Made by a program: the position numbers and the translations under genes. From positions 186,001-250,000 of the IMG/VR virus record IMGVR_UViG_3300042939_000736: a DNA stretch of 64,000 nt, one strand, 5' to 3'. The stretch is from a virus. The notes under the pieces are model-generated. The model was not told the DNA's origin. It did not search any database and saw nothing but the letters and a program-made list of their open reading frames with translations. Of this stretch, positions 9,692 to 60,028 are shown piece by piece; within the stretch, counting starts at the first letter, position 1, and every line of letters starts with the position of its first letter.

Positions 9692-10234
9692 ATGAAAACT
9701 GAAAAATTAGATTTAACAGAAAAATTAATTGAAGAATTGAAAAAAAGAAGAATGTTCGAAGCTAAAGAATTCGAAGAAGATGATGATGATGAGGATGATG
9801 ACGATGAGAATAATGATGAGGATGATGACGAAGACGAAAATGATGATGAAGATGAAAATAATGATAACAACGAAGACTTTTGTGAAATGGTTTGTAAAAT
9901 TCTTCACTCAAGAAATCAAGCTCACATATATCACCTTCAGACACAATCTTTTGCTGAACACAAAGCTCTAAATGATTACTATGATGGTATATTAGGACTA
10001 TTTGATGCTATTATAGAGTCTTACCAAGGTAAATACGGTATAATCAGAACTTATAAGACATTTAAAATTGAACAGTATAAAAATAATAAAAAAACAATTT
10101 CTTATTTTGAAAGATTACTGGACGATATAGATAATCTTAGAGGATCTGTTGAAGATAGTTATCTACAAAATCAAATTGATACTGTTGAAGAATTAATTAA
10201 CTCAACAATTTATAAACTTAAATTTCTTAAGTGA
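9692..10234 (+). CDS. DUF5856-like phage protein with acidic linker
   Basis: The start at 9692 follows the TATTTAT motif; an earlier in-frame Met lies upstream of the motif. After a charged N-terminus come about 35 residues of almost pure Asp/Glu/Asn, then a helical domain with HSRNQAHIYHLQTQSFAEH, KALNDYYDGI, IESYQGKYG and a final STIYKLKFL. This matches my recollection of the ferritin-like DUF5856 of tailed phages. The acidic tract may bind metal or basic partners. Role unknown. It overlaps the next gene by 4 nt. Confidence 0.7.
   Translation: MKTEKLDLTEKLIEELKKRRMFEAKEFEEDDDDEDDDDENNDEDDDEDENDDEDENNDNNEDFCEMVCKILHSRNQAHIYHLQTQSFAEHKALNDYYDGILGLFDAIIESYQGKYGIIRTYKTFKIEQYKNNKKTISYFERLLDDIDNLRGSVEDSYLQNQIDTVEELINSTIYKLKFLK
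9770..9876 (+). repeat. Low-complexity GAT/GAA/AAT tract
   Basis: Triplet-rich segment (gat, gag, gac, gaa, aat) encoding a run of acidic residues. Prone to slippage; long poly-Ser frames on the opposite strand are artefacts of it. Confidence 0.8.
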
Positions 10235-10593
10235 AACTAGAAATTACAGAAAATGAAAAAAATGATATTTCTTCACATCACGAAGAAATAGACAACATCC
10301 TGTTCAATTTTTTAATAAGAAGAGTAAGAATTGAAGAAAAAAATTTAGGTACAGATTGGTTTGATCAAAAACCGCTTAAAGTTACTGAATATAGATTTGA
10401 AGGATTTCCTGGTTATGGGTTTAATAGTTTTTCTTCTAAAAAAGACATGGAATATAAAATTGTTGAAATGTTGGTTGAAGGAACTGATATGGTTGGTGAC
10501 TGGTTTTTTGGACCAAACAATGTTAATAATCCGGAAAGACAAAAATTTATGAAAACAGTAAGAAATTTTTTAAATTTCATTTTGACAAAATGA
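10231..10593 (+). CDS. Hypothetical protein, 120 aa, leader-like start
   Basis: GTG start overlapping the upstream stop. The N-terminus MKLEITENEKND resembles the recurrent MKIIITExQ leader but lacks a clear cleavage motif. The rest includes EGFPGYGFNSFSSK and DWFFGPNN; no family recognised. Confidence 0.55.
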   Translation: MKLEITENEKNDISSHHEEIDNILFNFLIRRVRIEEKNLGTDWFDQKPLKVTEYRFEGFPGYGFNSFSSKKDMEYKIVEMLVEGTDMVGDWFFGPNNVNNPERQKFMKTVRNFLNFILTK

Positions 10594-10604
10594 AAAAAAA
10601 ATTC

Positions 10605-10612
10605 TAAATTTG
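10605..10612 (+). promoter_or_regulatory. Host-like promoter TTTG-N20-TAAATTTG
   Basis: TTTG at 10581-10584 and TAAATTTG here are separated by 20 nt, matching the Bacteroidota -33/-7 layout. Start codon at 10646. Confidence 0.6.
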
Positions 10613-10645
10613 TTTATTGTTTAACTTAAAATTATAAAAAAAGAA

Positions 10646-10894
10646 ATGGGTACAAAATCAGGGAAGAACGGGAGGTATATTTGTAAAGTTGGTTATTTTG
10701 ACATTTATGCAAAAGATAGTCACAAACCAAAAAAAGATTCAAAATATAAATTTTTAAAGGCAGAAGTTAAATCAACAGTTTACAATGTACTACACGCCAA
10801 AAAATTAATCCAAGGGAACTTTAAAACCAAAGATGATGCTGTTAAAAATGCTATTGAGCTTTTGGGGGATAAAAGATTAAACTATTCATTATAA
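10646..10894 (+). CDS. Hypothetical basic protein, 82 aa
   Basis: Lys-rich, beta-rich start (GRYICKVGYFDIYAKDS), then a helical end. Single-gene unit between a host-like promoter and a strong terminator. Function unknown. Confidence 0.6.
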   Translation: MGTKSGKNGRYICKVGYFDIYAKDSHKPKKDSKYKFLKAEVKSTVYNVLHAKKLIQGNFKTKDDAVKNAIELLGDKRLNYSL

Positions 10895-10897
10895 AAC

Positions 10898-10925
10898 AAA
10901 GTCGGATCAAAAATCCGACTTTTTA
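10898..10925. terminator. Bidirectional intrinsic terminator
   Basis: AAAGTCGGAT / ATCCGACTTT stem with a 5-nt loop and T-run, between convergent genes. Confidence 0.85.
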
Positions 10926-23281: not shown

Positions 23282-23417
23282 TCTTATAATCAAATCATAA
23301 AAACTAAATGTTAAGGGAAAGTTAAGTCGTTACCTTTTTGTTAAGTATTGTAAATGAATTGAACTTAACAAAATGGTTTACTATCTATTGTTAGATATAA
23401 ACAATAAAATTAAAAAA

Positions 23418-24983
23418 ATGAAACAAATTTATCTAACAATTTTTTCTGTAATGATGACAGTTTTGTCTTATTCACAGAATTCTTTTTGGACACCTACAAC
23501 ATACAGAGGTGCTTTTCCTATAACAGATAACACACCACAAACAGATTGGACTCATGGTTGGTCTAATTGGGATCCACAAAATACACAGTACCCAACAACT
23601 CAATTGGTAATTAATACTGATGTAACTACTGATGCAACTTGGTCAGGTGTTATAAAATTACAAAACAAAGTTTATATTAAAAATGGTGCAACACTTACAA
23701 TACTTCCAGGAACTATAATTAGAGGTGATTACAATAGTCAAGGAACTCTAATTGTAACAAGAGGATCAAAAATTATTGCTGATGGAAATGTGAACCAACC
23801 AATCGTCTTTACCTCAAACAATCCTGTCGGAAGTAGAAACGAAGGAGATTGGGGAGGTTTAGTTCTTTTGGGGCATGCCATTAATAATCAACCTGGTGGT
23901 GTTGTTAACATAGAAGGATTACCACCATCTACAAACACTCAACATGGAGGAGGTAATGATAATGATAACTCAGGAGTGTTAAGATATGTAAGAATCGAAT
24001 TTGCAGGAATTCCACTTGAACCAAACAAAGAAATTAACGGATTAACATTCGGTTCAGTTGGAAGTTTAACTACAGTGGATTATGTACAAGTAAGTTTCTG
24101 TGGAGACGACTCGTTTGAGTGGTTCGGAGGAACGGTAAACTGTAAACATTTAATTTCATATTCAACAATAGATGACGATTTTGATACTGACTTTGGATAC
24201 AGAGGTAAGGTTCAATTCGGTTTGGCGATTAGAAATGAAAATTTGTCAGACGCAGCGGGCGACTCAAATTGTTTCGAATCGGATAATGACGCACAGGGTA
24301 GCGCTTCTCAACCATTGACGGCACCTATTTTTTCTAACTTCACGATTATTGGGGCTAAGGGTGATGGGACTGTAATTCTTCCAGTGGGTGAAAAATTTGA
24401 AAAAGCTTTCAGATTAAGAAGAAATACTGCAACTTCTGTTTTCAACTCAATTGCGACAGGATGGGAAAAAGGATTATCTTTAGAGGGTGTTCCTGTTGAA
24501 AATAACATAACTTCAGGTGTTATGAACTTTAATAGTAACATACTTTCAAACTTTAATACTGGGACAGTTTGTTATACAACAACACCAAACTTTCTTTCAT
24601 CTTATTTTTCTCAAAACTTGAATGACTCAACTTTAACGAATCAAGACATCAATTGGGTTAACCCATTTGTTCAAATAGGATCAACACCTGATTTTAGATT
24701 GAATGGGTTCTCGTTTGCGGCAATTGGTGCCAACTTCCCTTTAAACATATTTGGAAATATTGCGTCAGTCGATGAACTTAATAATGGGTACACAATTTAT
24801 CCTAACCCGGCAACCAATCAAATTACGGTTAATGAAAAAACTAATATCGAAGTTATGGATCAAAACGGGAAATTATTAGTAAGTTCTTTTGATAATCAAG
24901 TTGAATTGATAAATCTACCAAATGGAGTTTATTTTGTTAGACTAAACAACTCCAAGGTTGAAAAGTTAATAATTAGAAAATGA
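23418..24983 (+). CDS. T9SS-sorted secreted protein, 521 aa
   Basis: Start at 23418 gives signal peptide MKQIYLTIFSVMMTVLSYSQ; the longer frame adds residues before it. A right-handed beta-solenoid-like body carries Bacteroidota motifs (GVIKLQNKVYIKNGATLTI, LPGTIIRG, GDWGGLVLLG, GDDSFEWFGGTVNCKHLIS). The C-terminus YTIYPNPATNQITV...KLIIRK is a type A T9SS sorting domain, so the product would be exported to the outer surface of a T9SS-bearing cell. No TATTTAT promoter. On a phage this is unusual cargo and may alter the host surface. Confidence 0.85.
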   Translation: MKQIYLTIFSVMMTVLSYSQNSFWTPTTYRGAFPITDNTPQTDWTHGWSNWDPQNTQYPTTQLVINTDVTTDATWSGVIKLQNKVYIKNGATLTILPGTIIRGDYNSQGTLIVTRGSKIIADGNVNQPIVFTSNNPVGSRNEGDWGGLVLLGHAINNQPGGVVNIEGLPPSTNTQHGGGNDNDNSGVLRYVRIEFAGIPLEPNKEINGLTFGSVGSLTTVDYVQVSFCGDDSFEWFGGTVNCKHLISYSTIDDDFDTDFGYRGKVQFGLAIRNENLSDAAGDSNCFESDNDAQGSASQPLTAPIFSNFTIIGAKGDGTVILPVGEKFEKAFRLRRNTATSVFNSIATGWEKGLSLEGVPVENNITSGVMNFNSNILSNFNTGTVCYTTTPNFLSSYFSQNLNDSTLTNQDINWVNPFVQIGSTPDFRLNGFSFAAIGANFPLNIFGNIASVDELNNGYTIYPNPATNQITVNEKTNIEVMDQNGKLLVSSFDNQVELINLPNGVYFVRLNNSKVEKLIIRK

Positions 24984-27348: not shown

Positions 27349-27355
27349 TATTTAT
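27349..27355 (+). promoter_or_regulatory. Candidate late promoter motif TATTTAT
   Basis: Ends 5 nt before the ATG at 27361. Confidence 0.45.
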
Positions 27356-27360
27356 AGTTA

Positions 27361-28302
27361 ATGAAAAATTTAATTAGATCAATACTAAATGAAGAATTAC
27401 ACCGTGAAGTTATACATGAATGTACTATAGCTGCGGTAAGACTCGAAGATGGTGTTGTTTTGGCGAAAAATAGAGATCGTGGATATAAAGCAAGAGTTGA
27501 AATCATTCATGAAATAGTCAATGATGTTGAAATGGTTTATTGGAGAGATGTTGACACTGATTGGAGTGAAGGAATGAATGAATTTGGTATCGGGATTGTA
27601 AATTCAAGTTTATTAGTCGTTCAAGACGAAAAGGAAGGTAAAGGGGTTGAAAAAGAAAGAAAATCTGATGGAAAAGATAAGGACAAACCAGCAAAAAAAA
27701 GATTCGCGGCTGACGGTGGTAAAATTAGAAAGGCTCTAACTTATAAAACTTTACCTAAAGTTATCAAATCAATTATTTCTTTCAGAGGTGAAGATAAAAA
27801 AGATGTTGGCCTCAAAGGGGAAACAATAGTGTCCAATAATGAAAATGTTTACGTAGTTGAAATGACCGCAAAACATTCCCCTGTGATCAAAAAATTGAAA
27901 AAAGAATCAAAATTAGTTGTCAGAACTAATCACGGCATTTATCAGAAAAGTGCTGGTTATACCAGTGGTAAAAAAAGAAAATCTTCAGTTTCAAGGATGA
28001 AATTGGCTCAGGATCATCTCAAAGATGTAAAAAATGATATGGATGTTATTGATGCTATGAAAAAGAAATACAAAAAAGATCCATTTTTGAATCCATACAG
28101 AACAAAAAATATGTATCACATGCAAACAACGGGACAAATTATGATGAATCTTGATAAAAAACTTGTTGTTGTAAGAATGGATAATGAAATGGGTGAATTT
28201 GTTGGAATAGAAAACAAACTTCCTAAAGATTATGAACCCAAAATCAAAATCAAAGTCGAAAGTGAAAAAACACATGATAACGGTAAAAAACTACCAACTT
28301 AA
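27361..28302 (+). CDS. Leader-bearing Ntn-hydrolase-like protein
   Basis: Leader MKNLIRSILNEELHREVIHE is followed at once by C21-T-I-A-A-V...DGVVLAKNRDRGY, the start of an N-terminal-nucleophile (C45 / acyltransferase type) hydrolase, where a free Cys is the nucleophile and NRDR is conserved. Later family-like segments are MNEFGIGIVNSSL, NENVYVVE and RTNHGIY. A prohead-protease-type cut after I-H-E would expose Cys21 and activate the enzyme. An unusual Lys-rich insertion (KEGKGVEKERKSDGKDKDKP) lies in the middle. These enzymes hydrolyse or transfer acyl-amide bonds; substrate unknown. Confidence 0.75.
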   Translation: MKNLIRSILNEELHREVIHECTIAAVRLEDGVVLAKNRDRGYKARVEIIHEIVNDVEMVYWRDVDTDWSEGMNEFGIGIVNSSLLVVQDEKEGKGVEKERKSDGKDKDKPAKKRFAADGGKIRKALTYKTLPKVIKSIISFRGEDKKDVGLKGETIVSNNENVYVVEMTAKHSPVIKKLKKESKLVVRTNHGIYQKSAGYTSGKKRKSSVSRMKLAQDHLKDVKNDMDVIDAMKKKYKKDPFLNPYRTKNMYHMQTTGQIMMNLDKKLVVVRMDNEMGEFVGIENKLPKDYEPKIKIKVESEKTHDNGKKLPT

Positions 28303-28552: not shown

Positions 28553-29440
28553 ATGGGATTAAATGAATCAATATATAGAATAATTAGAGAAGAAACTGAA
28601 ACCGATAAAAATATTGATGGTGGTAAATTAAAAGTTTGTTCTCGTAACCCAATTACAGGTTTTTATAGAGATGGATACTGTAGAACAGGTGATGATGATA
28701 AAGGTAGTCACACGGTATGTTCTAAGGTGACAAAAGAATTTCTTAAATTTACAAAGTCACAGGGAAATAATCTTGATATGTTACAACCTGGTGACAAGTG
28801 GTGTTTGTGTGCAAAAAGATGGGAAGAAGCAAATGAAAATGGGGTAGCTCCAAAAATTATCAGAAGTTCCACCAATATTAAAACTTTAGATATTATTAAT
28901 AGTGTAGACGAAGAATTGGATGAATATGCAAGAACCTTAAAAAATGCTAGAAGACAAGGTGTTGGTATAAGATTTCCACAATCCGCAATCAAAAGTAATC
29001 CAAGTAGATTTAGACCTTCAGTTAGAAAATCAATTTCAGAAATCTACGACAACTTTAGCTTATTAAGAAGATTAAATAGATCAATTGATGACACAACGAT
29101 AAAAAGGTTAGTAAAACAAAAAATGTATGACCTTGAACCCACTGAATATAATTCCAAATATGGTTACGCGGATGATGTTATTTTTTATGTTACTGATGAA
29201 TTTATCAAACCTTCAGATGATCCACAATACAGTAAAATTTACGATATTTTATACGAATATATTAGAATGAATTTTTCTAATATCATTTATAATTATTGGA
29301 CGGAAAATCAGTTGGAAAATGATGACGAGTTATATGAAAACAAAGAAATAACAGAAAGATGTTGGAAGGGATACACTCAAAAAGGTATGAAAACTATGTT
29401 TGGTAAAAAGTATCCTAATTGTGTAAAAATAAAGAAATGA
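28553..29440 (+). CDS. Leader-bearing DUF2237 protein with Cys-rich tail
   Basis: Leader MGLNESIYRIIREE; the start at 28553 is fixed by the TATTTAT motif. Residues 25-110 match DUF2237: LKVCSRNPITGFYRDGYCRT, GSHTVCSKVTKEFLKF, GDKWCLCAKRWEEA, AP. The C-terminus CWKGYTQKGMKTMFGKKYPN, then C, is a tail motif I recognise from marine tailed-phage proteins. DUF2237 proteins have no proven activity; the Cys set suggests metal binding. Confidence 0.8.
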   Translation: MGLNESIYRIIREETETDKNIDGGKLKVCSRNPITGFYRDGYCRTGDDDKGSHTVCSKVTKEFLKFTKSQGNNLDMLQPGDKWCLCAKRWEEANENGVAPKIIRSSTNIKTLDIINSVDEELDEYARTLKNARRQGVGIRFPQSAIKSNPSRFRPSVRKSISEIYDNFSLLRRLNRSIDDTTIKRLVKQKMYDLEPTEYNSKYGYADDVIFYVTDEFIKPSDDPQYSKIYDILYEYIRMNFSNIIYNYWTENQLENDDELYENKEITERCWKGYTQKGMKTMFGKKYPNCVKIKK

Positions 29441-29441
29441 A

Positions 29442-29852
29442 ATGAACCTACAAGAAAACATACAAAGAATCAAAGAAATGATGAAAATAAATCATTCATT
29501 TTTGAACGAATCGCAAAGTTTAGGAGTTACCAAAATTTTGGGTAGACCATTCCAATTAGTTAAAACTGAAGTACCTTACAAATTTGAAATCCAAGATAAC
29601 AAAAATGACATGATTAAAATGCAAATAACCGCACCTAATGGTTCTTTTATTAATATAGATGAAGTTGACCATGTTTTGGAAGAAACTGACGGTGGTGGAA
29701 AAAAATTGATTGGTTATAATTTCAAGGGTAAGAGCGGAACTGTAAAGTTGATAGATGTTCCAAATGTTAAAAGAATTATTGAGTTTGTTGATAATTCAGA
29801 AAAAAAATCAATAACAATTTCTTTTGTGACATTCGAAAAAGTACTTGAATAA
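29442..29852 (+). CDS. Leader-bearing protein, 136 aa (MNLQENI type)
   Basis: Leader MNLQENIQRIKEMM, then S-F-L-N-E at residue 23 as predicted cut. The small beta-rich body (NGSFINIDEVDHVLEETDGG) is unrecognised. It directly follows the DUF2237 gene and overlaps the next ATG by one base. Confidence 0.65.
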   Translation: MNLQENIQRIKEMMKINHSFLNESQSLGVTKILGRPFQLVKTEVPYKFEIQDNKNDMIKMQITAPNGSFINIDEVDHVLEETDGGGKKLIGYNFKGKSGTVKLIDVPNVKRIIEFVDNSEKKSITISFVTFEKVLE

Positions 29853-30334
29853 TGAACCTACAAGAAAACATACAAAGGATAAAAGAAATGATGGGAATAA
29901 TAGTTGAAAATTACTATGACCCAAAAAAGTTGTATGTTGACATGGGTGGAGTTTTATTCAAAAAAATGGGTGCCGATGAAGGTGGATCAGGTAATGAAAC
30001 TGATTATATAGGGAGCGAATTATGGGAAAGTATTAAAAAATATTACCCAATAATTCTTACTTCCACAGGATCCAAAAATATAGAAAATTCAGAAAAAATA
30101 AAAACCAAACAAGTTCAAGACTATTTAAACCCAATTCCAAAAATTGAATTTGTTGTCTTTGGGGCTGATAAAAAAACTTTTGCCACCACAACTCAAGACG
30201 ATTTAGTTTATCCAAATATTTTAATAGATGATTCTGAAACAAACATAAACGGATGGGTAAACAATGGAGGTATTGGAATACTTCATAAAAATAATCAAAC
30301 AACTTTGGAACAATTAAAAAGTTATATCAAATGA
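29852..30334 (+). CDS. Leader-bearing HAD-like protein, 160 aa
   Basis: Leader MNLQENIQRIKEMMG with I-V-E at residue 19. The body resembles small HAD phosphatases / 5'-nucleotidases: KKLYVDMGGVLF (Asp30 nucleophile), ILTSTGS (motif II), and NILIDDSETNINGW with GGIGILHKN (motif IV). The second motif-I Asp, the usual acid/base, is Gly32 here, so phosphatase activity may be lost or changed. Overlaps the next gene by ATGA. Confidence 0.7.
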   Translation: MNLQENIQRIKEMMGIIVENYYDPKKLYVDMGGVLFKKMGADEGGSGNETDYIGSELWESIKKYYPIILTSTGSKNIENSEKIKTKQVQDYLNPIPKIEFVVFGADKKTFATTTQDDLVYPNILIDDSETNINGWVNNGGIGILHKNNQTTLEQLKSYIK

Positions 30335-31086
30335 ACCTACAAGAAAACATACCGGTACATATAAAAAGAAGAATTCATTTAATTGATAAGGTAATAGATA
30401 ATTTGTTACCCAATATGTATCCGTGTGATTATAATTCTTATGACCATTTTGTGGAAGGAGTATTAGATGAAATTAGATGGTTTTTAATTGATGTAGAAGA
30501 ATTACAACGTATTGAAAGATCGGATATTGAAAACTACATTCTTGATTACAAATATGATGAATTAACTGAATACTTCAATGAAAGGTGTATTGTTTTAAAA
30601 AATGATAAACTACAAGAAAACATAAGAAGACTTTCAAGAGAAAATTCACTAAAGAATGATTTGATGAATCTAATTGATAATGTTGGTTTAAAAAAAGCGT
30701 CAAAGGCTGTGGGAGGGATGGTTAGATTATTAAAAATATTAGATCTTGATCAACAAGAAATTAATAATTTTATTTACCAGTATCTAAAAGAAGAGTTTTA
30801 TCCTGATTATAATTGGGGACCTGAAATACATGATTTTTATAAAAAAGAAATTGAACAGTATGGTATATATGATTTTTTGATTAATGATGATCCGGCATAT
30901 TCATATTTAGGTGAGTGGGATGGATATGAATATCTATACACACTATCAATTGGTAAACTTGTCAGGGATGAACTTACAAAACTGTTTGGGGATAAGTGGA
31001 TTCCAATTTTTAAGAAATGGTTTGAAGAAAACTCAGGTCTTGAAGTAAGAGAAATAGACTTAAATAATAAATTTTTAGTGTATTGA
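30331..31086 (+). CDS. Fused leader protein: LRR...PCDY plus KAVGG modules
   Basis: Starts MNLQENIP, then an LRR/PCDY-type module (HIKRRIHLIDKVIDNLLPNM, PCDY). About residue 92 a second leader-like sequence appears inside the protein (DKLQENIRRLSREN), followed by the KAVGG module of 19019/22841 (GLKKASKAVGGMVRLLKILD) and an unrecognised domain. It looks like a fusion of two leader genes. Function unknown. Confidence 0.65.
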   Translation: MNLQENIPVHIKRRIHLIDKVIDNLLPNMYPCDYNSYDHFVEGVLDEIRWFLIDVEELQRIERSDIENYILDYKYDELTEYFNERCIVLKNDKLQENIRRLSRENSLKNDLMNLIDNVGLKKASKAVGGMVRLLKILDLDQQEINNFIYQYLKEEFYPDYNWGPEIHDFYKKEIEQYGIYDFLINDDPAYSYLGEWDGYEYLYTLSIGKLVRDELTKLFGDKWIPIFKKWFEENSGLEVREIDLNNKFLVY

Positions 31087-31091
31087 TTGAG

Positions 31092-31433
31092 GTGAACAAA
31101 AAAGAATTTATAAAAAGACTATTAAGGGAAAATAATTCAAATCCAATTAATCCAATTTTAAGAAGATTGGATGTCGTTGATTGGTTGGTTGAGTTTTCAG
31201 TAAGAGAAATAGAAAGACAATATAATGGTATATGTAAAGTAAGAACCCCTGAAAACTTTTTGGAAATTGTAATAGAAAAGACTGGGGATGGAATGTATTG
31301 GGATTATTTTTCTGACACACTAGATGATGATTCAGAAGAGTGGGCGGAAATGTATAGATTCATATCCATATATGTGTATAATAAATTTGGTGATAAGTTA
31401 AGAGAACATTTTCACACACAGTGTGGAGATTAA
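31092..31433 (+). CDS. Leader-bearing LRR-module protein, 113 aa
   Basis: GTG start at 31092 gives the leader MNKKEFIKRLLRENN; a TTG at 31083 is the alternative. Module NPILRRLDVVDWLVEF belongs to the LRR...PCDY family, although the PCDY position is diverged. Confidence 0.55.
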   Translation: MNKKEFIKRLLRENNSNPINPILRRLDVVDWLVEFSVREIERQYNGICKVRTPENFLEIVIEKTGDGMYWDYFSDTLDDDSEEWAEMYRFISIYVYNKFGDKLREHFHTQCGD

Positions 31434-31447
31434 CATAATTATATAAT

Positions 31448-32230
31448 ATGAACCTACAGGAAAACATATTAAGAATTAAACAAATGATGGGACTTGTTAC
31501 AGAAGTTACTAATCCATACAAAGTTGAATGGTTGGAACCTACACAAGAATACTTTACACAAGAGTTAAGTGAGTTATTGGGCAATCCTATTAGGTTTACA
31601 GACAAAGAGTTTTTCAACCCTGAAAACTATGATACGGTTTATAACATTATGCCACACACATTCAAAACGATTGCTGAATTTTCTAAAGGTGAATATGTGG
31701 AAGGCGAAGATAAAATTAAGGACATACTTCTAAATCAAAATATAATATCTCTTTTAAAAGAAGAAGAAAGATGGAATGAATTGAAAAACATTTTAATGAA
31801 TGACCCGCAATCAATCCAAGAAGGTTATGATTTCTTCAGTCGTGGTCAAATGACGATATGGAAAGGAACTAACCCTGAAACAGGTGAACATATTGATAAT
31901 GTAAACAACACTGATTACATGGGTGAATTAACAAGTTTTCTTGAACCATTAAAAAAAACCGTATCTTCCAAAATGTCATCACATTTGAAAAAAGTTGGTG
32001 ACGGAGAAGGTAATAAAGATTTACACGCTTTTGCAGGAAACATCGACCAATATAGAGAATTTGCAAAGAAAAGTGAAACAAGAAAATTACCAGCACCATT
32101 TGTTGTTAAATACTACACAAAGAAAAATGATAAAGATTATGTTTTAATAGGTGGATTCAAAAGAAGTTCAATCGCATTACAAATGGGTATTGAACCAATA
32201 AAAGTTTGGTTAATAGATTTAACAATATGA
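31448..32230 (+). CDS. Leader-bearing protein with ParB-like end, 260 aa
   Basis: Leader MNLQENILRIKQMMGLVTE, cut predicted after residue 19. The C-terminus PFVVKYYTKKNDKDYVLIGG then FKRSSIALQMGIEPIKVWLI resembles a ParB/sulfiredoxin-fold ending (GGxxRxxIAxxxGIxPIxVWL). The middle is unrecognised. ATGA overlap with the next gene. Confidence 0.6.
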   Translation: MNLQENILRIKQMMGLVTEVTNPYKVEWLEPTQEYFTQELSELLGNPIRFTDKEFFNPENYDTVYNIMPHTFKTIAEFSKGEYVEGEDKIKDILLNQNIISLLKEEERWNELKNILMNDPQSIQEGYDFFSRGQMTIWKGTNPETGEHIDNVNNTDYMGELTSFLEPLKKTVSSKMSSHLKKVGDGEGNKDLHAFAGNIDQYREFAKKSETRKLPAPFVVKYYTKKNDKDYVLIGGFKRSSIALQMGIEPIKVWLIDLTI

Positions 32231-32976
32231 ACCTACAAGAAAACATACAAAGGATTAAACAAATGATGGGGATCATTAACGAGAATATAGATGATGTTCT
32301 TGACAAAATGAGCCGAGGTGAAGAATTGTCACAGGAAGATAAAAATAAAATGTCAGTATTTCAAAAACATCTTTTTTCAGGAAAAAAAGAAAATGATTTC
32401 AAATATCACAGAGTATCTGAGTTAAATATTGCAGAACCTAATTCAGAAAATCATGTAAATGAATCACAAATTCTTGTACACTACGATTCTAATACTAATA
32501 TCAAACCAGAATACATGGTAAAAAAAATTGCACTTATTTTAAATAAATCAAACATTGATTGTGTAGTTGGGTATTCTTTTAGATTGTTTACATTTGCCAA
32601 TGGGTATTTTGTTAAGGTAAATGAGTACCAAGTCGAAAACGCAATTTATGTTTTGAATAAAAACGGGTTTAGTACGGAAATGAATCCAATGTATGATCTT
32701 TCAAATAACTATGACACAAAAAGTAACCGAGAAGAAAAACTACAAAACTTTTCTGAAAATTCAGATATAATAATTTTGAGTGACTCTGAAATTTATCAAA
32801 ATTTAAATCTTACTGATACACAATTTAATGATAGATTAGAAAAACTGTTAAAAAAATTTGGTATAAATAACTTCTTTATAACAAAAAATAAAATAACCAT
32901 TTCTGATAAATCAAAAATTGACGATGTGATTAATTATTTGAATACCAAAGGATACAACACAAGAAGATCAAGATAA
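32227..32976 (+). CDS. Leader-bearing protein, 249 aa (MNLQENI type)
   Basis: Start at 32227 fixed by the ATGA overlap and by the leader MNLQENIQRIKQMMG with I-I-N-E at residue 19. Then a DKMSRGEELSQEDKNKM segment like that in 12602, and a C-terminal half with two repeat-like strands ('NKSNIDCVVGYSFRLFTFA'). Function unknown. Confidence 0.65.
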   Translation: MNLQENIQRIKQMMGIINENIDDVLDKMSRGEELSQEDKNKMSVFQKHLFSGKKENDFKYHRVSELNIAEPNSENHVNESQILVHYDSNTNIKPEYMVKKIALILNKSNIDCVVGYSFRLFTFANGYFVKVNEYQVENAIYVLNKNGFSTEMNPMYDLSNNYDTKSNREEKLQNFSENSDIIILSDSEIYQNLNLTDTQFNDRLEKLLKKFGINNFFITKNKITISDKSKIDDVINYLNTKGYNTRRSR

Positions 32977-32977
32977 T

Positions 32978-33385
32978 ATGAATTTACAAGAAAACATATC
33001 AAGGATTAAACAAATGATGGGACTTCTTACAGAAGGACTTCATGACACATATTGGCAAAATGAAGATGGTGACAAAATAACTCTAATTGATTTATTAAAT
33101 GCAACACAAGACATACCTGTAGAAGAATTTTCCGTAGAAGAATTAAAACCGCATCTATTAACTTGGGATGGGGATGAAGATGAGGTTAAAAAAATAGAAA
33201 GTGCCAATTTACAATACCCAATATTAATATTCGTAAATGACGATGGTGAATTTATATCAATTATAGATGGTCATCACCGAGCACAAAAAGCGGTGAGAAA
33301 AGGGTTAGAAACAATTAAGGCGAAGGTAATACCAATTAATTCTTTACCTAAAAACATAAGAAGAGTATTTTCACATATGAACTAA
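32978..33385 (+). CDS. Leader-bearing ParB-like domain protein, 135 aa
   Basis: Leader MNLQENISRIKQMMG with L-L-T-E at residue 19. The body carries the ParB/sulfiredoxin core PILIFVNDDGEFISIIDGHH then RAQKAVRKGLETIKAKVIPI. DGHHR corresponds to the GHxR box that in ParB binds CTP and in other members has nuclease or kinase roles. It is a single small domain without a DNA-binding part. Confidence 0.75.
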   Translation: MNLQENISRIKQMMGLLTEGLHDTYWQNEDGDKITLIDLLNATQDIPVEEFSVEELKPHLLTWDGDEDEVKKIESANLQYPILIFVNDDGEFISIIDGHHRAQKAVRKGLETIKAKVIPINSLPKNIRRVFSHMN

Positions 33386-57571: not shown

Positions 57572-60028
57572 ATGAAAAAAATATTTTTAATTTTTATACT
57601 TTTAGTTAACTTTGTGTATTCACAATATTGTCCTTATATTGGACCGGATTTAACCTTACCTTGTGGTGTCAACTCAACAACTTTGACCGCTGATCTATCA
57701 CAATGTGGTCAAGGAGCACTTCCTCAAGGAACCTCTAATTATGGAGTTACTAACATACCTTATGTTGCTCAAGTAAATAACGGAACATTGGTTCAACTTG
57801 GGGACGATTCACAATCTGGTGTATTTAATATTGGTTTTACTTTTTGTTATTACGGATCAACTTACACACAGTTTCGTATAGGATCTAACGGATGGGTTTC
57901 GTTAGGTGCAGGTGCTCAACCAACAACGTTCACATCTGCGGCAATTCCAAATGCAGGATTTAACATACCTAAAAATTGTATTATGGGCCCATGGCAAGAT
58001 TGGAACCCTGGAATTGGAGGTCAAATTAGATATCAAGTACAAGGAACAGCTCCGTGTCGTAAATTAGTAGTTAGTTGGATAGGTGTTCCTATGTTTTCTT
58101 GTACAAACCTTCAGGGCACTTTTCATATTATACTTTATGAATCCACAAATGTTATAGAAAATCATATTGCAAATAAACCAAACTGTCTTCAATGGGCTGG
58201 AGGAACTGCAGTACAGGGTATACATAACCTTTTAGGAAACGCTGCCGTAACAGTTGTAGGACGAAACTCAACTCAATGGACTACTGTTAACAATGCTTAT
58301 CGTTGGACACCAAACGGTGGAGTGATCCAACCAACTTGGACATGGTATCAGGTAGGAAATCCAAACCCAATTGGTACAGGATTGAGTATCACTGTCAATC
58401 CCCCCATCGGAGGAGCCTATTATACCTGTCAACCAGTATTCCCTTCTTGTAACGCAGGATGGGCAACATGTAATATTGGTGGTGGTAATTTAGGTCCCGA
58501 CACCATTTTAGTAACACCAACACCAAATTTACCACCACCCACAGTTACTCCAACAGATCCTTTATGTAATAATGGTTGTAATGGATCAATAGTTGTGACT
58601 CCTGTTGGTGGATTAGCCCCTTATGTTATTAATTGGGCTAATGGATCAAACACTCTAACTTTAAATAACTTGTGTTCAGGGACATATAATTTTTCTTTAA
58701 CCGATGCAAATGGGTGTGTGTACAATGGAACTTCCACTTTATTGAACCCACCACCATTACAATTACCAATAGTAACGTCAACTAACCCAACTTGTTTTGG
58801 TTATTGTGACGGATCATCAATTGTCAATCCTATAGATGGACTTGCACCATACACATACCTTTGGAATGATGGTCAAACCACTCAAACGGCAACTAATTTA
58901 TGTTCGGGAAACTATTCTGTAACTGTTACAGACGCAAATAACTGTCCTGCAACTCAAACTACAACGTTAGTTGATCCTCCACTTGTAACAATCAACCCGA
59001 TTACAGGATCAGACACAGTTTGTTTTAACTCTACAGGTAATTTATACAATGTTTCAAGTGTTTTTCCTAACCTAAACTACGTATGGACTAATACGATAGG
59101 AAATATCTCGTCAGGACAAGGTACAAATCAAATAAACTTGGACGTAACTGGCGTGAATAATGGTCTTTACACTAATACTTTATCGGTTATTGGTGTAAAT
59201 CAGGTAGGTTGTCAGTCACAACCTCAAACTTTTTCTATAGTTGTGTTAAATATTTTTCCTGTGATCACACCAGTTGGACCTTTTTGCGAATACGACAACT
59301 GTATCAACCTAATTGCGACTCCTCCTAACGGTAGTTTTAGTGGATCTAACGTAATTGGTGATCAATATTGTCCAAGTAATGGTTATATTGGTCTTGATGA
59401 GGTTACGTATACTTATATTCAGTCAGGATGTTTGTTTGATACCTCAATATTTGTTCAAACTTACTCAAGACCATCAATAATTCCTGTCACAAATGGTATT
59501 GTAGGTGAAAATACTGAGTATCATCAGATATGTGAAGGAGATACGGTACAAGATTCCTTCACGTTGAACACACCGAGTGGTGGTTTTAACGAATGGTATG
59601 TGTTTGGTGACACAACACAGACACAAAACCTGTCAATTACATGGAATATTGATGGAATCTACACATTTCAAGGGGTAAGATGGGACAATGGATGTGTTTC
59701 TAACCCCCAAACGTTCACTGTAACGTTAGAATTGTGTCCAAATGACATATTTTACATACCAAACGCCTTTACACCCGATGGAGACGAAAAAAACAACGTA
59801 TTTAAACCCATAATTACATCAGGAGTTGACATTTTTAACTACAGTTTTGTTATATTCAACCGTTGGGGACAGATAATATGGGAATCAATGAACACAAATA
59901 CAGGTTGGGACGGTACATATGACAACAAACCATGTCAAGATGGAGTTTATACGTGGAAATTGAAGTATAAAAATCCTAAAAATGATGAAATTCGTGAGTT
60001 TTATGGAAATTTCTCATTAATTAAGTAA
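57572..60028 (+). CDS. Surface protein with SprB repeats and CHU_C domain, 818 aa
   Basis: Start at 57572 gives signal peptide MKKIFLIFILLVNFVYSQ. An N-terminal globular domain (YGSTYTQFRIGSNGWVSLG) is followed by two SprB-type repeats (TVTPTDPLCNNGCNGSIVVT; TSTNPTCFGYCDGSSIVNPI), Ig-like parts, and the gliding-motility C-terminal domain: IPNAFTPDGDEKNNVFKPI, IFNRWGQIIWES, GWDGTYDNKPCQDGVYTWKL. That domain is a type B T9SS sorting signal. Expected to be exported onto the surface of a Bacteroidota cell. Unlike the other T9SS protein it has a TATTTAT motif, so it may be made late; an adhesin or surface decoration is plausible. Confidence 0.85.
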   Translation: MKKIFLIFILLVNFVYSQYCPYIGPDLTLPCGVNSTTLTADLSQCGQGALPQGTSNYGVTNIPYVAQVNNGTLVQLGDDSQSGVFNIGFTFCYYGSTYTQFRIGSNGWVSLGAGAQPTTFTSAAIPNAGFNIPKNCIMGPWQDWNPGIGGQIRYQVQGTAPCRKLVVSWIGVPMFSCTNLQGTFHIILYESTNVIENHIANKPNCLQWAGGTAVQGIHNLLGNAAVTVVGRNSTQWTTVNNAYRWTPNGGVIQPTWTWYQVGNPNPIGTGLSITVNPPIGGAYYTCQPVFPSCNAGWATCNIGGGNLGPDTILVTPTPNLPPPTVTPTDPLCNNGCNGSIVVTPVGGLAPYVINWANGSNTLTLNNLCSGTYNFSLTDANGCVYNGTSTLLNPPPLQLPIVTSTNPTCFGYCDGSSIVNPIDGLAPYTYLWNDGQTTQTATNLCSGNYSVTVTDANNCPATQTTTLVDPPLVTINPITGSDTVCFNSTGNLYNVSSVFPNLNYVWTNTIGNISSGQGTNQINLDVTGVNNGLYTNTLSVIGVNQVGCQSQPQTFSIVVLNIFPVITPVGPFCEYDNCINLIATPPNGSFSGSNVIGDQYCPSNGYIGLDEVTYTYIQSGCLFDTSIFVQTYSRPSIIPVTNGIVGENTEYHQICEGDTVQDSFTLNTPSGGFNEWYVFGDTTQTQNLSITWNIDGIYTFQGVRWDNGCVSNPQTFTVTLELCPNDIFYIPNAFTPDGDEKNNVFKPIITSGVDIFNYSFVIFNRWGQIIWESMNTNTGWDGTYDNKPCQDGVYTWKLKYKNPKNDEIREFYGNFSLIK

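Follow-up and report, generated by a model that had tools for sequence, protein, structure and literature searches.

A phage Ntn hydrolase preceded by a capsid-targeting-like leader whose predicted cleavage by a prohead protease would expose the catalytic cysteine

Enzymes of the N-terminal nucleophile (Ntn) fold require a free N-terminal nucleophile. Bile salt hydrolases and penicillin V acylases share with the enzyme considered here both this fold and an N-terminal Cys, and differ from it in being cellular enzymes; some of them start with Met-Cys, as do nine of the phage homologues presented below, the penicillin V acylase of B. sphaericus reportedly removes its own three-residue pre-peptide, and we know of no prohead-protease motif in this group. 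Isopenicillin N acyltransferase (IAT; peptidase family C45, Pfam AAT, PDB 2x1c-2x1e), which resembles the phage enzyme in its fold, in its N-terminal Cys, and in the need for a cut before that Cys, cleaves itself between Gly102 and Cys103, its alpha subunit being formed from the region ahead of the cut (PMC7183595), and self-processing is the default for the fold.

On the phage side, the closest parallels are the IPI-IPIII and Alt proteins of T4. Excerpts of the accounts devoted to them (PMC9026906, PMC7411985) describe short N-terminal propeptides carried by unrelated proteins and cut by an S77 protease after L/I-X-E, as predicted here, as well as head proteins that are co-injected with the DNA, a fate that the phage enzyme would share. 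According to the same excerpts, the cut serves targeting and core release, and the creation of a catalytic residue is not among the roles that they describe, whereas the cut predicted here falls exactly at the nucleophile of an enzyme. In the giant phages SPN3US and phiKZ, many internal proteins are likewise trimmed by a gp21-related protease, but at A/S-X-E, a P3 specificity other than the one found here, and the excerpted sources report no Ntn enzyme for them (PMC5694885, PMC9026906). A prohead-protease-activated Ntn enzyme was not found in the literature searched, which is not proof of absence; what seems new here is that Ntn activation would be handed to the capsid-maturation protease.

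The gene under study lies in a window of 64,000 nucleotides, which corresponds to bases 186001-250000 of a 290,710-bp phage record. Its features are as follows:

27361-28302, plus strand: ORF of 313 aa, beginning with MKNLIRSILNEELHREVIHE, directly followed by CTIAAVRLEDGVVLAKNRDRGY...
27361-27420, plus strand: 20-residue leader MKNLIRSILNEELHREVIHE, a capsid-targeting-like propeptide
27385-27393, plus strand: L9-N10-E11, first possible prohead-protease site, fitting [LI]xE
27412-27420, plus strand: I18-H19-E20, predicted prohead-protease site, where a cut would expose Cys21
27421-27423, plus strand: Cys21, predicted N-terminal nucleophile, Cys in 130/130 homologues and directly before strand 1
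27421-28299, plus strand: predicted mature Ntn hydrolase domain, AAT/C45-like, residues 21-313 (AlphaFold, Foldseek, C45 profile)
27469-27480, plus strand: NRDR motif, N37-R40, with D39 at Cys+18, invariant in the homologue alignment
27928-27936, plus strand: N190-H191-G192, candidate oxyanion-hole motif, invariant in the homologue alignment

A preliminary description of this DNA had noted a leader ending I-H-E at residue 20 and a Cys at residue 21, which can be read directly in the translation, and had taken this Cys for an Ntn nucleophile, an assignment that is now strongly supported by the fold, by C45/AAT matches, by the homologues, and by relatives that start with Met-Cys. In the structure prediction that it had called for, with the leader removed, Cys21 directly precedes the first strand (E2-8; block pLDDT 97), and the Cys21-start form reaches a pLDDT of 90.5 and a pTM of 0.90 with AlphaFold, a better score that is not attributable to leader removal alone, this model having also used a deeper alignment. 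The full-length model is good from residue 21 onward, with a low pLDDT of 52-55 over the leader, and its best solved match in Foldseek is IAT 2x1c (E 5e-9). In the PDB, the Cys21-start model comes closest to CV2077 and isopenicillin N acyltransferase (Foldseek best 3gvz, E 1.2e-9; IAT 2x1e, E 2.0e-8), followed by bile salt hydrolases and penicillin V acylases; proteasome/HslV structures also figure among the fold matches, as does, for the full-length model, the precursor structure 2iwm of the B. sphaericus penicillin V acylase. Both programs thus place the protein in the alpha-beta-beta-alpha Ntn fold, and in the model as in the homologues the catalytic residue opens the first strand at position 1 of the predicted N-terminus. 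In all 72 sequences of the first homologue set, the N of NRD stands at exactly Cys+16, and the position of D39 at Cys+18 corresponds to the Cys103-to-Asp121 spacing of isopenicillin N acyltransferase; N190-H191-G192 may form the oxyanion hole.

The ORF product is accordingly best described, as modeled and as matched by profiles, as a predicted Ntn hydrolase of AAT/C45 type, and the fold suggests that its substrate bond would be an amide or N-acyl bond. Searching the PDB by sequence yielded no usable match, and no PHROGs family covers the enzyme. The window protein itself remains below the curated C45/AAT cut-offs, just short for Pfam AAT (PF03417: E 1e-4, 22.5 bits against 23.2) and further below for NCBIfam C45_proenzyme (NF040521: E 1.5e-10, 41 bits against 85), when the homologue L104 clears the former with 24.4 bits and NF040521 matches 50 of 55 diverse relatives (best E 3e-14). 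These subthreshold scores are what one would cite in favor of an inactive relic, or of a structural protein with a noncatalytic Cys, a notion to which we give practically no credit in view of the 37 columns that are invariant across the 55 diverse members, including Cys1, NRDR, NHG, and several Arg, and of the start codon that stands directly before the Cys where the leader is absent. As a side observation, a 944-residue viral protein in BFVD (A0A1B1IVH7) has a domain of the same fold with 35% identity, which suggests that the enzyme occurs within a larger polypeptide too.

The strongest argument for a cleavage that unmasks Cys21 comes from the relatives of the enzyme, which supply a control experiment, and it is for this reason that the finding is stronger than could be known from the window. 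Scans of IMG/VR returned more than 400 relatives each, and the N-termini of 429 loci were read, corresponding to 130 distinct proteins; the only isolates in which the gene was found are the Chryseobacterium phages MA9V-1 and MA9V-2, with LNE or INE ahead of the Cys, and two scans covering 84,980 prokaryote species, with a single genome per species, found no close cellular relative. At the nucleophile position, all 130 proteins have Cys. A leader precedes it in 121 of the 130 distinct homologues, with many unrelated types and lengths that range between 4 and more than 90 aa, and the nine others start with Met-Cys, where the Cys would be freed by methionine aminopeptidase; besides these two, no other arrangement was seen among the 130. 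In the leader-bearing homologues, which represent 89 distinct leaders, all 121 end in Glu (P1), and 118/121 have Leu or Ile at P3 (Leu 66, Ile 52, Met 1, Phe 1, Val 1), when P2 and the positions from P4 onward vary freely. In the phage proteome, [LI]xE has a background of 1.37% per position and precedes 11 of 1,033 Cys. Because 118 of 121 leaders carry the motif against this background, and because the search patterns that collected most homologues contained no junction, the I-H-E/Cys junction is more than chance.

Two further explanations were considered and rejected. That the junction is a search artefact does not fit with most scans having used patterns located elsewhere in the protein. That start codons were wrongly placed does not fit with the in-frame stop found close upstream for most short leaders and Met-Cys starts: in the Met-Cys homologues, in-frame stops lie 0-19 codons upstream with no ATG, GTG, or TTG start in between, and in five MLNE cases and in L414 an upstream TTG or GTG is present, so that these leaders may be longer.

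The leaders themselves are heterogeneous. Besides the type of the window protein (MKNLIRSILNE...), we found MNLQ..IRRIL and IT/LTESQ types, a type resembling the short targeting peptides of T4 (MEFKEFLFNE, MDFKQFINEINE), and very short ones, just four or five residues long (MIKE↓C, MINE↓C, MKLTE↓C, the arrow marking the predicted cut). A quick tree built from the mature domain, with open forks and long branches, requires at least 21 changes of leader class and at least 4 of the leader/no-leader state; the junction has therefore been kept through repeated replacement of the sequence that precedes it. Two further leader forms were observed. In L091, L102, L103, L105, L120, and L147, the place of the short leader is taken by a pro-domain some 90 residues long, which likewise ends [LIV]xE↓C and has no Pfam match (L120 searched). 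In L024 and L076, the leader bears a tandem AHDT repeat expansion (MKRILITESQLSLLVKSDNTAHDTAHDTAHDTIQE) with an unaltered IQE↓C junction.

The motif is not restricted to this enzyme. In the same genome, the MKxLIRxILxE class of leader also heads unrelated ORFs, so that a short N-terminal peptide is common to unrelated proteins of one phage: 34 ORFs of the record bear leaders of three classes, and [LIVM]xE occurs in residues 8-32 of 34/34 of them against 116/276 other ORFs, a count constrained in part by the leader-class patterns, and in an interior stretch of the same leader proteins in 12/33. The record further has a T4-type head module, with the large terminase gp17, a T4-like portal gp20 (E 3e-76), and the major capsid protein Gp23 (E 2e-73), and the prohead protease presumed in the preliminary description does exist as a gene of the same record:

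10203-10919 of the record (G000), outside the window: Peptidase_S77 (gp21-type) prohead protease, E 1.1e-22

As T4 gp21 cleaves after L/I-X-E, according to the excerpted source (PMC9026906), the I-H-E before Cys21 fits its motif. The same source describes that, with Asp at the T4 position corresponding to E20, processing no longer takes place whereas targeting persists. In this phage and ten others, the gp23 propeptide ends deduced from alignment are of the form LINE↓A, LLNE↓S, LVTE↓V, LLKE↓G, and LMNE↓V, with Val and Met also found at P3 like the rare exceptions in the enzyme family. Among sampled homologue-bearing records, S77 was detected in 14/20 and 11/16, those without it being fragments or not known to be complete, and in 1/10 of a further set made up mostly of short fragments. 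In the two Chryseobacterium phages (L205 and L206), the S77 match lies within an open frame of more than 1,200 codons, so that their protease may belong to a far longer protein.

These observations bear on the question of who makes the cut. Autocatalytic removal of the leader, as in C45/AAT enzymes and penicillin V acylases, with [LI]xE merely aiding self-cleavage, would have in its favor that the profile nearest to the enzyme is that of an "autoproteolytic" C45 family, that IAT and the 2iwm precursor offer models for it, and that self-cleavage could take off short leaders. Self-cleavage does not predict a Glu at P1 together with L/I at P3 when P2 and P4 onward are free, nor that the motif coincides with that of the phage's own protease and reappears at the leader ends of unrelated proteins. 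Moreover, the alpha region of about 100 aa found in IAT is absent from the phage enzyme: unlike IAT, the family mostly has leaders of 0-35 aa, or an unrelated pro-domain, ending [LI]xE, and with Glu at every P1 and leaders mostly of 4-35 aa, no Gly-Cys junction behind a long alpha region was encountered. On this basis, we consider self-processing to be unlikely. A host Glu-specific peptidase, which the shortness of the motif might allow, would not account for the specific L/I at P3 that matches gp21, nor for the co-occurrence of S77 in long records, and we deem it highly improbable. The claim that the prohead protease, and not the enzyme, performs the cut appears instead well supported by the S77 gene, the gp21 motif match, the agreement of gp23 and of the 34 leaders, and the persistence of the motif through many changes of leader.

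It could also be proposed that the leader serves for targeting alone, the protease cutting at E11 or at various points and other peptidases then trimming the protein up to Cys21. The leader does contain a second L-N-E site after residue 11, a position at which leaders end in other genes of the same phage, and propeptides with more than one site have been described for T4-like and giant phages, as seen in excerpts (PMC5694885, PMC9026906). Nevertheless, what all leader types conserve is the site adjoining the Cys, even where a leader has no other (MIKE↓C, MKNTLLQE↓C), which leaves this proposal little credibility.

We therefore retain cleavage by the gp21-type protease as the probable course of events: a leader-bearing Ntn proenzyme would be packaged, cut after E20, matured in the head, and delivered with the DNA. 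In such a scenario, the phage would synthesize an Ntn amidohydrolase/acyltransferase as a proenzyme, whose capsid-targeting-type leader would bring it into the prohead core with other leader-bearing proteins; the T4-gp21-type protease, activated in head maturation, would cut after I-H-E, and the loss of the leader would turn Cys21 into a free N-terminal nucleophile, such that the enzyme would mature inside the head and enter the next host with the DNA. The unmasking of Cys21 by cleavage is well supported by the comparison of homologues; packaging, cutting by this protease, inactivity of the precursor, and delivery are inferred. That the precursor would be inactive until head maturation, the "safety catch" of the preliminary description, would follow from Ntn chemistry and is not universal: the nine Met-Cys homologues have no such catch, and at least some of them sit in S77-bearing phages. 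Head trimming is therefore not needed in every phage, which suggests that in some lineages the enzyme works unlocked. The shortest leaders, of four or five residues, may be too short for core targeting, although in the excerpted description of T4, Alt loses just 7 residues (PMC9026906). More broadly, and with somewhat less assurance, we lean toward the view that a large, virus-restricted Ntn family gave up self-activation, its N-terminus being made in trans in the prohead by the capsid-maturation protease, which would couple activation to virion assembly, and the active enzyme delivered, with lineages switching between the lock and Met-Cys.

If true, Ntn enzymes would have one more way to reach maturity, next to self-cleavage and methionine removal, and the role of head maturation would extend from the trimming of structural proteins to the activation of a packaged enzyme. 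The invariant junction would also constitute an internal, testable argument that the leaders found on dozens of otherwise unknown phage proteins are prohead-protease substrates, which opens a reading of head-packaged proteomes from sequence alone.

With regard to expression, the enzyme gene is preceded by an element shared with head genes:

27349-27355, plus strand: TATTTAT element, 12 nt upstream of the start codon

Of 310 ORFs, 92 have TATTTAT in the 60 nt before their start, when permuted 7-mers give a median of 24, and it precedes the gp17, gp21, gp22-like, and gp23 genes as well as 18/34 leader genes, which makes it a candidate late promoter of the phage, common to the enzyme and head genes. 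Next to the enzyme gene, the ORF at 28553-29440 has a DUF2237 domain behind a leader-like N-terminus (MGLNESIYRIIREE...), and its product is probably head-packaged. It is followed at 29442-33385 by a run of genes with a common leader, MNLQENI.RIK.MMG.., ending [LIV]xE, one of which matches the 5'-3' deoxyribonucleotidase family. Elsewhere in the window, 23373-24983 and 57572-60028 encode type IX secretion sorting domains (Por_Secre_tail; SprB repeats and CHU_C), which suggests that the host belongs to the Bacteroidota and that some phage-encoded proteins would be secreted or displayed at the surface.
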